Shown here piece by piece: positions 17,851-46,925 of a stretch of DNA of 64,000 bases. Each line of letters opens with the position of its first letter. Within the stretch, counting starts at the first letter, position 1. A program made the position numbers and the translations under genes. The notes under the pieces were generated by a model, which was not told the DNA's origin, made no database searches, and saw nothing but the letters and a program-made list of their open reading frames with translations. The DNA is from Spirosoma foliorum (GTDB taxonomy: Bacteria; Bacteroidota; Bacteroidia; Cytophagales; Spirosomataceae), in assembly GCF_014117325.1 (NCBI RefSeq), contig NZ_CP059732.1:7818501-7882500 (forward strand), read 5' to 3'.

Positions 17851-18160
17851 GTTTTTGTCTGATGTAAAAAGCAGCTACTCTGCCAAAGTTGGCTTTTACG
17901 TGAGAATGAAATAAGTCGTTTCTGAGGTTGAGAACAAGTGGTAAGCTTGGTACTATCTACTAACGCTATAGTAGATTTACGTTTAACTTGCTAGTTGTTA
18001 GGCGGTTACTGATTAAAGGGGTTGTCTTAATCACTTTAATGGGATCTTGCTATTGACGTACAAAGGCTATGAGTATAGGCCTTTATACTTATCTAATAAA
18101 GCGAAAGCATCTACAGAGCAAGCATTTTGTTGGCTCAATAGTTGCCGTGCTTTAGATGAT

Positions 18161-18243
18161 TGCAAGCTGATAGTTGTCGGCTTGCAAGCTCTTATGGGTT
18201 AGGTTCAAAAACGTTGGTCCATTTTTGAGGCCAACGTTTTTTT
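18161..18243 (+). ncRNA. Structured small RNA candidate, family B copy 1
   Basis: A 7-bp hairpin (TGCAAGC with GCTTGCA, 12-base loop) is followed by the unpaired block AGCTCTTATGGGTTAG and then by a terminator hairpin (ACGTTGG with CCAACGT) and a run of seven T. A second copy lies on the minus strand at 46842-46925, with the same unpaired block, the same terminator stem and a compensatory base-pair change in the first hairpin. No frame of any size matches this layout. Transcription start and function are unknown. Confidence 0.6.
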
Positions 18244-19967: not shown

Positions 19968-20039
19968 GGCTTTATGGTGTAATGGATAGCATCACAGTCT
20001 TCGGAACTGTTGGTTGGGGTTCGAGTCCCTATAAAGCCA
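19968..20039 (+). tRNA. tRNA-Arg (anticodon TCG)
   Basis: The cloverleaf is clear: acceptor GGCTTTA pairs with TAAAGCC, the anticodon stem ACAGT pairs with ACTGT around the loop CTTCGGA (anticodon TCG, reading CGA), and the T arm is GGGTTCGAGTCCC. The discriminator is A and no CCA is encoded. A terminator follows at once. Confidence 0.9.
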
Positions 20040-20584: not shown

Positions 20585-21240
20585 GCTATTGCTGATTTAA
20601 GCTAGAGTTTAGATGAAAAGAGGGTTTTGGGAGTTAAGTAAAAAACCTTGTCTATAGTTAGTTTAAAGACGTTCCTATTGTTCCTATTCTTCTGTACTGA
20701 TTTTTGTCAATTAATTGATCCTTCTCAGATGAATCTGTTGTAGTAAGTAAACAAAGTAACCTAGTCGAGCGATGACCTGTGTTGCTGGATAGAGCATAAG
20801 GAAAACAGTTTCATGGGTTGACTACTATACGTAAATCAGGATGTTTTTGATTCCTAAGAATTCATACTATACGCTTAACTCTCTAAAAAATGATGTTTTC
20901 GTGTGTATTTGATAACTAAAAGCCTACCAAATCAAGATGCCATGAACTTCAGATTGGCCTACAAATTCCAATTCTGTTAAAATTAACATGTGTTAGTTAG
21001 TTACGCCGTTTAGTCGATGTGTTACCAAATATAAACATTTGTTCCTTATTTTGTTTTGAGAATTGTTAAGTGTAAACTTAATTATTCGTTGGAAATAATT
21101 TGTAAACGCTGGCTCGTTTGAGTCCAGCGTTTTTTACAATGACTAGCGGGCTTATTTATACAGCTATAGATGAATCGGTAAGGCTTAATAGAGAGAAGAT
21201 ATAGCTATAGGCTGCCTCAAACAACAGTTTCTGATAGTCT
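20585..21240. other. Gene-free A/T-rich interval before the small-RNA array
   Basis: There is no coding frame of note here. One terminator-like hairpin (21104-21135) marks the end of an unknown transcript. The interval is probably a promoter region plus leader for the array that follows. Confidence 0.4.
21104..21135 (+). terminator. Terminator of unknown transcript
   Basis: Stem AAACGCTGG against CCAGCGTTT with an 11-base loop, then TTT. It has the same stem type as the terminators of the array downstream but no GGTGTGG motif in front of it. Confidence 0.7.
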
Positions 21241-21337
21241 ATTCGTGTTCTTTGTAAGTACTACTATTATTCCTCACTCATGTGTAGAATGGATTAGGTA
21301 CAAAAAACGCCAGCCTTACTGAGGCTGGCGTTTTTAA
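21241..21337 (+). ncRNA. Degenerate member of the GGTGTGG small-RNA family
   Basis: The terminator (AACGCCAGCC with GGCTGGCGTT) and the flanking ATTCG and TACTA blocks line up with the unit at 21600-21677, but the GGTGTGG motif is reduced to GAATGG followed by ATTAGG. It is read as a decayed or diverged first half of a duplicated pair. Confidence 0.45.
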
Positions 21338-21368
21338 TTTTATATTAATGAGCTTGACTTCGTTATGC

Positions 21369-21463
21369 CGTAAGTTGCAAGAAGTTATTAGGTGCGCTTT
21401 GGCGCACGAATGGTGTGGATAGAATATATATAACGCCAGTCTCATTGGGACTGGCGTTTTTTT
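21369..21463 (+). ncRNA. Small RNA candidate, GGTGTGG family member 1
   Basis: The order is TAAGTTGC block, hairpin GTGCGC-TTTG-GCGCAC, then GAATGGTGTGGATAGA, then a terminator (AACGCCAGTC with GGACTGGCGTT) and a T run. The same order and nearly the same ends occur at 21711-21799. No frame fits. The fixed unpaired GGTGTGG is the likely functional part. Confidence 0.65.
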
Positions 21464-21599
21464 ACGGCTATTGCCGAAGATTCAAATCGTCATAAACCAC
21501 TATACTATCTCGAAGCTTGACCAGGCATGATAAGACTATAGCGTATTGTTATAAAAAGTATATGGCTTGCCAATAGCCCATTCGGCAAAGCTCTGGGTA

Positions 21600-21677
21600 C
21601 TATTTATTGTCTCCTACTTAGGTAGGGATGGTGTGGATATTGCCCAAACGCCAGTTCTCGTAGGACTGGCGTTTTTA
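21600..21677 (+). ncRNA. Small RNA candidate, GGTGTGG family member 2
   Basis: The hairpin has a wholly different stem (CCTAC-TTAG-GTAGG) but is again followed by GATGGTGTGGATA and a terminator of the AACGCCAG type. The changed stem sequence with kept pairing is good evidence for an RNA structure. Confidence 0.6.
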
Positions 21678-21710
21678 ATTCTCTGTTAATGAACTTAAAT
21701 TCATTAACCT

Positions 21711-21799
21711 GTAAGTTGCATGGCTTATTAAGTGCGTTACATGCACGAAGGTGTGGATAGAGAAGTTTAACGTCAGTTTCGCTGGGACTGGCGTTTTTT
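21711..21799 (+). ncRNA. Small RNA candidate, GGTGTGG family member 3
   Basis: This is a close copy of the unit at 21369-21463: TAAGTTGCA, TTATTA, hairpin GTGCG with TGCAC, GAAGGTGTGGATAGA, then terminator AACGTCAGT with ACTGGCGTT and six T. The bases just upstream also match those ahead of member 1, so a stretch of about 340 bases was duplicated. Confidence 0.65.
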
Positions 21800-22005: not shown

Positions 22006-22857
22006 TCAGGCGTTAAGCTTCTTGACATTTTGGAAGCTAATCGCAATGGCTTCCAGCGGGGGAACTTTGCAAATGTCCTGCTCAACGTAATAGTGTTTAA
22101 TACCTGCAATCTTGCGTGCATCCAGAATTCGCTGAAAATCAATGGAGCCAGTACCTACTGGCGCGAAGGAACGCTCGGCCGTTTTTTCCATATCCTTCAA
22201 ATGGACAATTGGGAAACGGCCTGGGTTTTGCTTGAATAGCGCTACCGGATCTTGACCCGCTTTTGTTGACCAGTATATATCTAATTCCAGTTTAACCAAT
22301 TTAGGATCAGTTCCTTTTAGGAGTAGATCATAGGGAACCTGACCGTCTAAGGGTTGAAATTCAAAGTCGTGATTGTGGTAAATAAATTGAAGCCCGGCTT
22401 TCTGGCATACTTCTGCCGATCGGTTAAATAACTCGTTCAGCTTTTTATAGTCATCGATAGTTTTACGTTCATTGGGGGCTAAATAAGCACATCCTATGAG
22501 CGATTGGCCAGCTTCAGCGGCCTGGTCTACGGTTTTCTGCCAGTCGGTTTTCATCGTGCTCGTCATAGTGAGGAGACTTGGCGCACTCAGCCCCATTCCA
22601 CTCAAAAAGGCTTTGAATTCCTTTGGAGATTTGCCATAGTAGCCACCTATTTCTATTTCGGTATAGCCGATAGCCGCTACCTTTTTCAGTGTACCTTCTA
22701 CGTCTTTTTCCATCTCATTTCGGACCGTATAGAGTTGCAGACCTACGTTTTTTAGTGGAGCCGCCGTAGCGTCCAGTTTACTCAGAATGGGCAGAGAAAG
22801 AGCAAGGGCACTTGTTTTCAAGAACTCGCTTCGGGAAATTGTACGGGGAAAGGCCAT
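22006..22857 (-). CDS. Exported sugar phosphate isomerase/epimerase-like TIM barrel protein
   Basis: This gene codes for 283 residues. The N-terminus ISRSEFLKTSALALSLPIL is a twin-arginine-like or Sec signal (SRSEFLK). The barrel includes VGLQLYTVRNEM, IGYTEIEIGGYYGKSP, FIYHNHDFEFQPLDG, LVKLELDIYWSTKAG, FPIVHLKDMEK and YVEQDIC, the pattern of AP-endonuclease-2/xylose isomerase-like proteins, with the metal-binding Glu, His and Asp in these blocks. The substrate is unknown. Genes of this type often work with sugar dehydrogenases in Bacteroidota. Confidence 0.85.
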   Translation of the reverse strand: MAFPRTISRSEFLKTSALALSLPILSKLDATAAPLKNVGLQLYTVRNEMEKDVEGTLKKVAAIGYTEIEIGGYYGKSPKEFKAFLSGMGLSAPSLLTMTSTMKTDWQKTVDQAAEAGQSLIGCAYLAPNERKTIDDYKKLNELFNRSAEVCQKAGLQFIYHNHDFEFQPLDGQVPYDLLLKGTDPKLVKLELDIYWSTKAGQDPVALFKQNPGRFPIVHLKDMEKTAERSFAPVGTGSIDFQRILDARKIAGIKHYYVEQDICKVPPLEAIAISFQNVKKLNA

Positions 22858-43424: not shown

Positions 43425-43503
43425 TGGGTATTACGTTAGTTCGCGCTAGGCGCGACGGTGTGGTTTCACGAAACGCTCAGGCTGATGGCTTGGGCGTTTT
43501 TTA
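43425..43503 (+). ncRNA. Small RNA candidate, GGTGTGG family member 4 (dispersed)
   Basis: The hairpin TCGCGC-TAG-GCGCGA is followed by CGGTGTGG and a terminator hairpin (AACGCTCAGG with CTTGGGCGTT) and a run of six T. The stem differs fully from those at 21.4-21.8 kb yet has the same place and size, which supports a shared RNA structure. Confidence 0.55.
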
Positions 43504-46841: not shown

Positions 46842-46925
46842 AAAAAAACGTTGGCACTAGTAGCACCAACGTTTATATCTAACCCATAAGAGCTCGCAGG
46901 CTACTAGATGTAGACCTGCAATCGG
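46842..46925 (-). ncRNA. Structured small RNA candidate, family B copy 2
   Basis: On the minus strand the order is hairpin GCAGG-14 bases-CCTGC, AGCTCTTATGGGTTAG, then terminator ACGTTGG with CCAACGT and a seven-T run. Compared with 18161-18243, one A-T pair of the first stem is replaced by G-C with the 14-base interval kept, and the block in the middle is the same. Confidence 0.6.

Follow-up and report, generated by a model that had tools for sequence, protein, structure and literature searches.

Three tandem units in a gene-poor neighbourhood

The window analysed here, a stretch of 64,000 nucleotides of the Spirosoma foliorum contig NZ_CP059732.1 (positions 7,818,501 to 7,882,500), contains three tandem predicted small RNA (sRNA) units and a fourth copy 22 kb off. 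The array lies in a gene-poor neighbourhood, with a tRNA gene (19968-20039) on one side and a minus-strand gene (22006-22857) on the other. Each unit runs from a 5′ hairpin through the core GGTGTGGATA (usually with AT just before it) and a short linker to an intrinsic terminator. Bit scores in the following list are those of R2, the second of three steps (R1, R2, R3) in which a covariance model was built.

21241..21339, plus strand: hairpin and terminator with ATGGATTAGG and without GGTGTGG, initially described as a diverged unit (sequence, fold)
21371..21378, plus strand: possible -7 element TAAGTTGC of unit 1, a weak TAnnTTTG match
21392..21463, plus strand: unit 1, predicted sRNA, 5′ end possibly some bases further upstream (R2 70.6 bits; contig 7839892-7839963)
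21392..21407, plus strand: unit 1 variable 5′ hairpin, GTGCGC-TTTG-GCGCAC (fold)
21410..21421, plus strand: unit 1 core ATGGTGTGGATA (sequence)
21432..21463, plus strand: unit 1 intrinsic terminator (terminator scan)
21612..21676, plus strand: unit 2, predicted sRNA (R2 70.3 bits)
21612..21627, plus strand: unit 2 variable 5′ hairpin, TCCTAC-TTAG-GTAGGG, with T-G as its outermost pair (fold)
21628..21639, plus strand: unit 2 core ATGGTGTGGATA (sequence)
21646..21676, plus strand: unit 2 intrinsic terminator (terminator scan)
21712..21719, plus strand: possible -7 element TAAGTTGC of unit 3, weak
21732..21799, plus strand: unit 3, predicted sRNA (R2 59.8 bits)
21732..21746, plus strand: unit 3 variable 5′ hairpin, GTGCGT-TAC-ATGCAC (fold)
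21748..21759, plus strand: unit 3 core AAGGTGTGGATA (sequence)
21769..21799, plus strand: unit 3 intrinsic terminator (terminator scan)
43442..43503, plus strand: fourth copy, with hairpin CGCGC/GCGCG, GGTGTGG at 43457 followed by TTT rather than ATA, and terminator (R2 52 bits)

The hairpin, GGTGTGG and terminator that the initial annotation had ascribed to three units are all present in units 1-3, where 6-10 bases link the core to a GC-rich terminator and the stem letters are unrelated from unit to unit. Its 3′ ends were correct, whereas its starts (21369, 21600 and 21711) sit 12-23 bases upstream of the hairpins. A fourth unit had been placed at 21241; a hairpin and terminator do occur there, but GGTGTGG is absent and membership is doubtful. 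Open reading frames of 35-55 codons overlap the units, yet their strand and relative position differ from unit to unit and they share no common frame, which agrees with the earlier statement that no reading frame fits. Between 20000 and 22000 we counted 10 terminator-like sites, compared with 1.6 in shuffles, and fold z-scores were -4.9, -4.5 and -1.8 for units 1, 2 and 3 and -6.9 for the stretch at 21241. Just 5′ of the array (21104-21137) stands an AACGC-type terminator hairpin without an obvious core.

Copies in the genome and in relatives

Eleven GGTGTGG copies were read in the S. foliorum genome, those outside the window at contig positions 3904002, 1441978, 1441416, 4384531, 1015919, 2270040 and 4293325. 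A further R3 match, at 7460130, has no core and was assigned to a second family described below. The consensus of the copies is a variable hairpin, AATGGTGTGGATA, often GAAGCGGAAA, and a GC-rich terminator.

The pattern GGTGTGGATN{4,26}AACGCC occurs at 18 places in 36 genomes of the same genus, units 1 and 2 among them, versus five places for the reversed control. When the letters were read, 14 of the 18 loci had the hairpin-core-terminator layout; L010, L012, L018 and L019 look like chance pattern matches and were not kept as members. Extra candidates adjoin two of the matches (L016 at 1050; L015 at 1356, with an unclear T run). The covariance model matched all 36 genomes at E ≤ 0.01, part of these matches being read and some, such as L085, being bare terminators; a single genome (G039) gave 43 R2 matches at this threshold. 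The conservation check suggested by the initial annotation came out positively, the model and pattern searches both finding the layout in relatives and the pattern search exceeding its reversed control.

Across the taxonomic family of S. foliorum, R3 at E ≤ 1e-5 matched at least 78 of 150 genomes and at least 21 of 36 genera, with few of the matches read and with 0 to 19 per genome among the matches listed. All 23 loci read from seven other genera of the family carry the core GGTGTGGATA before the terminator. Among a set of 241 genomes R3 matched 34, 11 of these outside the family. GGTGTGG before a T run was absent from all seven outside-family match loci read (L118, L123-L128), a reading that took one locus from each of seven genomes, left out G195, G260, G280 and G363, and relied for L125 on a motif scan alone. 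L118, from another family of the order, has ATGGTGTGAAAAAGATAGTAGAAAAGCC before its terminator near position 1500 (minus strand; R3 E 6.3e-9) and might be distant kin of the sRNA family. A phylum-wide search with the pattern matched 10 of 395 genomes, four in the same family and six with unlike linkers, judged from the matched letters alone.

A covarying hairpin that may be absent in one genus

MAFFT misplaced the hairpin or the core of the short copies, so structure-fitted alignments were used instead. The resulting alignment, A10, has 61 rows, of which 60 are distinct. Each of the six modelled pairs of the stem has changed on both sides, 96.0% of stem cells pair, and the whole-structure covariation score is 0.869, compared with 0.224 after shuffling and at most 0.108 after sliding; since the alignment was fitted to the structure, these figures are biased toward it. 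A10 includes three coreless rows (L080:161, L047:609 and L049:636, the last two with the core of the second family) and one row with AGTGTGG (L083), and these odd rows stayed in R3 and in the covariation counts.

Two further comparisons, which are less biased, agree with this stem. A structure-free MAFFT alignment of 13 copies of a long form (see below) was folded with RNAalifold, which recovered the stem, with both partners changed in 7 of its 11 pairs. At the 18 pattern-retrieved loci, for which the hairpin was not used and which include the four chance loci, the mean stem score was 6.56, versus 4.88 for mononucleotide shuffles and 4.97 for control stretches 200 bases upstream of the same loci. 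Six of the 18 reach P ≤ 0.05 individually, and in 14 of 18 the fold z-score is lower adjoining the core than 40 bases upstream. Stem covariation in relatives upholds the initial view of a selected RNA fold. In one genus (g45), eight loci have no 5′ hairpin by eye and consist of TATATTTG, about a dozen bases, AATGGTGTGGATATAGTCGGAAAGC and then the terminator, an arrangement suggesting that the RNA can do without the hairpin but not without the core.

A near-fixed and mostly unpaired core

GGTGTGG is exact in 57 of the 61 A10 rows, a constancy that is partly a retrieval effect, as the pattern and model searches favour the core and copies that lost it would be under-counted. That everything in the RNA except the core changes among the copies found is not a search artefact. 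The core has a mean unpaired probability of 0.71 over the 57 rows, exceeding 0.5 in 53 of them, compared with 0.34 for the stretch upstream. ATA follows GGTGTGG directly in 52 of 57 rows (exceptions L040, L078, L079, L082 and L086). Because the core is kept by paralogues that have diverged everywhere else, we consider this ten-base, mostly unpaired element most likely to be the working part of the RNA, and the earlier reading of the fixed unpaired motif as a functional site holds up in relatives.

The triplet overlapping the start of the core is ATG in 40 of 57 rows and TTG in 10, with TTG, GTG or CTG together in 12. The core could accordingly be read as the start of a short peptide, MVWI..., whose frame, where the linker is GAAGCGGAAAGC, continues through the terminator as MVWIEAES.... 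We regard such a peptide as highly improbable: five of the 57 rows have no start codon (AAG twice, TAG, GCG, ACG), the reading lengths vary between 0 and 70 residues, what follows MVWI is different unless the linker is shared, and the frame crosses the terminator stem.

Transcription signals and mobility

The -7 promoter element of Bacteroidota is TAnnTTTG. In 9 of 59 copies an exact match stands no more than 30 nt 5′ of the matched hairpin, versus 1.4% of shuffles; with up to one mismatch allowed the count is 21 of 59, versus 24% in shuffles. Most copies are therefore without a clear promoter of this type. Units 1 and 3 have TAAGTTGC alone, and GTAAGTTGCA occurs upstream of both of them and of a G039 copy (L080). 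The array of RNA genes that had been proposed gains support from the identical architecture of dozens of dispersed copies and from the promoters in part of them.

The core-type pattern is also found in four viral contigs, three of which have the full layout (L150, L151 and L152); L149 has a pattern match without it. The copy-carrying contigs are 43-69 kb long. The copy in L150 adjoins tape measure and anti-repressor genes and that in L151 an endolysin gene, and the one protein compared from L152 had no PHROG match. Seven of ten G039 stretches that were compared have aligned pieces in common, which are up to 320 bp long and contain the RNA. Three G039 sRNA copies also have a repeated coding stretch of about 600 bp, 68-76% identical, no more than about 1 kb away (L243 1148-1751; L245 2891-3496; L249 3027-3632).

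Shared pieces of this kind would suit a DNA element that is never read as RNA, either a terminator combined with a DnaA-like box or a REP/MITE-type repeat, and the core resembles a DnaA box in that TGTGGATA is similar to the reverse of TTATCCACA. This explanation is nevertheless very improbable in our view, given that the core may be followed by G, A or T while the conserved part reaches GG on the other side, that the stem covaries and exact promoters precede some copies, and that order and orientation relative to the terminator are constant in the copies read.

A long form beside two-component systems

Thirteen copies from 13 genomes belong to a long form of about 140 nt. The addition, which lies 5′ of the usual hairpin, looks by eye like a small hairpin of its own; in 12 of the 13 its sequence is CCTTTACAAAGG or close to it, and in G074 an unrelated longer hairpin takes its place. 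The long form also carries a second invariant stretch, GGGAAGGTTGAA. At 8 of 11 loci examined, an OmpR-type response regulator gene follows it in the same orientation, in one case after an intervening gene, and a kinase gene is visible after the regulator in five loci. In S. foliorum the long-form copy (L153, contig 2267646-2273401) is located between a CusA/CzcA efflux pump gene, which scores above its model's cut-off, and a two-component system whose regulator and kinase have cztR_silR_copR and cztS_silS_copS as best models, both below cut-off. A link of the long form to metal stress may be taken from these neighbours as a lead. At six loci from three genera (L096, L098, L113, L114, L115 and L120), a second copy with the linker TAGTCGGAAA precedes the long form by 237-761 nt, core to core.

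The recurrent position before a response regulator is what one would expect of a cis-acting leader or attenuator, with hairpin, core and terminator forming a 5′ UTR sensor for the downstream gene. As an account of the family this is improbable, since the gene after the window array is on the opposite strand, the short copies of S. foliorum adjoin various genes, three long forms (L069, L098 and L104) have no response regulator within the stretch examined, and tandem copies that each have a terminator do not fit.

Proposed function

We consider it rather probable that these loci constitute a paralogous sRNA family, whose members most likely act in trans as antisense regulators with the core as seed. 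The unit anatomy, the covarying stem, the near-fixed core, the distribution and number of the copies, and the phage genes next to two of them can be read directly from sequence, whereas transcription, the seed role, the direction of regulation and protection by the hairpin are what we infer. The predicted RNAs would be about 65-90 nt (about 140 nt in the long form), each with its own intrinsic terminator and part of them with a recognisable promoter of their own. The freely changing 5′ hairpin would cap the 5′ end and hold the following stretch open, so that the single-stranded core GGUGUGGAUA (usually AUGGUGUGGAUA, often running on into GAAGCGGAAA) could pair with other RNAs as a seed, and the terminator hairpin would form the 3′ end. 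Tandem duplication, dispersal and carriage by phages may have multiplied the copies and thereby placed one seed behind different promoters. Cores of this kind serve most commonly as seeds for antisense pairing.

Predicted targets did not stand out at gene starts. CCACACC, which the initial annotation had proposed to seek near start codons, is not enriched there: it occurs at 3 of 832 predicted gene starts versus 3.6 expected (1.264 Mb, 14% of the genome). A few complementary words with more A and T show a mild excess (TATCCAC 8 versus 4.0; CTATCCAC 4 versus 1.1), others do not, and the excess may merely reflect AT-rich leaders. Duplex energies at the 832 starts are no better than in gene interiors (-13.30 versus -13.46 kcal/mol), and we therefore give no weight to the ten best start duplexes, which average -22.5 kcal/mol compared with -20.6 (sd 1.0) for 60 shuffled seeds. 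For SusC, with 30 of 56 matches tested against 618 other genes, duplexes gave p = 0.22 with the long seed and p = 0.85 with the core. The top-ranking duplex of the 832, at a gene (1442236) beside an sRNA pair, was not found again in the stretches examined near sRNA copies of G016, G024, G014 and G001. A small regulon would escape detection in these comparisons, because starts were taken as the first ATG, over 14% of the genome and without a conservation filter.

The lack of enrichment of CCACACC, and duplexes that are no better at starts than elsewhere, would be expected if the RNAs were instead protein-binding decoys or adaptors, in which an RNA-binding protein recognises the unpaired core and is titrated by the numerous copies, as by a CsrA sponge. 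A core that stays nearly constant while hairpin, linker and terminator drift (with a retrieval that favoured the core) points the same way, as does GGGAAGGTTGAA in the long form, which adds GGA motifs. Candidate partners were, however, not found in the S. foliorum genome, for Hfq (PF17209; 5 of 14 control genomes positive), CsrA (PF02599; 3 of 14 positive) or RRM proteins (PF00076; Bacteroides control positive). Known sponge RNAs carry several protein sites, whereas the copies read here have one core per RNA. We accordingly hold the decoy explanation to be unlikely, though worth keeping in view beside the antisense one.

Relation to known sRNAs

At gathering score, Rfam 15 recognises only two tRNAs in the window, and the array, unit 1 and 10 relative loci all remain below gathering scores, in keeping with the initial remark that no described family has this layout. 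The best-scoring model on unit 1, Qrr, falls far below its cut-off (25.2 versus 50 bits). We found no published description of the family in the titles and abstract starts examined, a coverage that excludes bioRxiv preprints and most subscription journals, and the family is apparently, and provisionally, undescribed.

The RNAs have the layout and multiplicity of a multicopy sRNA family. Qrr and the csRNAs are such families with a common seed, and LhrC1-5 and NgncR_162/163 are likewise sibling sRNAs sharing a seed; all of these are from other phyla. The RsmX/Y/Z and CsrB sponges resemble the present RNAs in their unpaired GGA-containing motifs but differ in carrying more than the one core per RNA seen here, and no CsrA gene was found in this genome.

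FopS comes closest, in kind as well as in phylum. The FopS sRNAs of Bacteroides thetaiotaomicron comprise 14 paralogues of about 65-70 nt that have a seed in common and their own promoters and terminators, have a phage-borne relative and work with the RRM protein RbpB (PMC11697453). Both families belong to Bacteroidota and are multicopy and short, with a shared seed or core, a promoter (exact in 9 of 59 copies here) and a terminator. They differ in that no RRM gene corresponding to RbpB was found in S. foliorum, that a covarying hairpin usually precedes the core, and that SusC targeting was not seen. As far as the GibS model (RF04182) can show, the two are unrelated in sequence, unit 1 scoring 19.3 bits against a gathering score of 115 (E 0.78).

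As far as the literature searched shows, RNA regulation in environmental Bacteroidota of this kind is hardly described. About a dozen copies with a near-fixed core, together with the viral copies, offer a way into the regulon and to a partner protein, if there is one. Set beside FopS, the family would also be a second, independent case in which to ask why many copies of one sRNA are maintained in Bacteroidota.

A second sRNA-like family with the same layout

The sequence ATGGGTTAG stands before a T run at 11 places in the sequences examined, eight of which resemble hairpin-core-terminator units, with hairpins identified by eye and cores that read AGCTCTTATGGGTTAG or nearly so. The remaining three, L163, L166 and L181, appear to be chance occurrences. 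Other members are located at contig positions 7460130-7460192 of S. foliorum and in L047, L049, L250, L251 and L004, and two lie in the window:

18150..18243, plus strand: second-family unit, core at 18194
46842..46905, minus strand: second-family unit, core at 46887

We counted 29 places with the 15-mer GCTCTTATGGGTTAG, spread over 7 of the 36 genomes of the genus, and none with its reversed control. Inverted pairs 95-99 nt apart are present in G004, G039 and G045. In the stretch at 21241, ATGGATTAGG resembles the second-family core ATGGGTTAGG, so that this unit may be a diverged member.

Tentatively, we propose that the two families belong to one regulatory system of a single bacterial family, a system that would do without Hfq, CsrA and RRM proteins and in which parallel RNA families are built on one chassis and differ only in their core, their copies being spread by duplication and by phages so that one seed comes under many promoters. 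The shared chassis would consist of a freely swapped hairpin, a fixed unpaired core and a terminator, with the cores GGUGUGGAUA and AUGGGUUAG marking two such families.

Further hairpin/terminator units have other recurring stretches before the terminator, namely AGTGTGATG, AATGTAAGTAGTG and TGATGTAGA. They are located in L008 (1072-1131 and 1219-1286), L020 (1046-1105 and 1187-1251) and L017 (63-126 and 1698-1775, both on the minus strand), and are perhaps more sRNA families in the same arrays. Near sRNA copies of two species (L154 9677-9783 and L253 6568-6675) there is, in addition, a GATTCT-rich stretch of 107 bases that is 86% identical between them.
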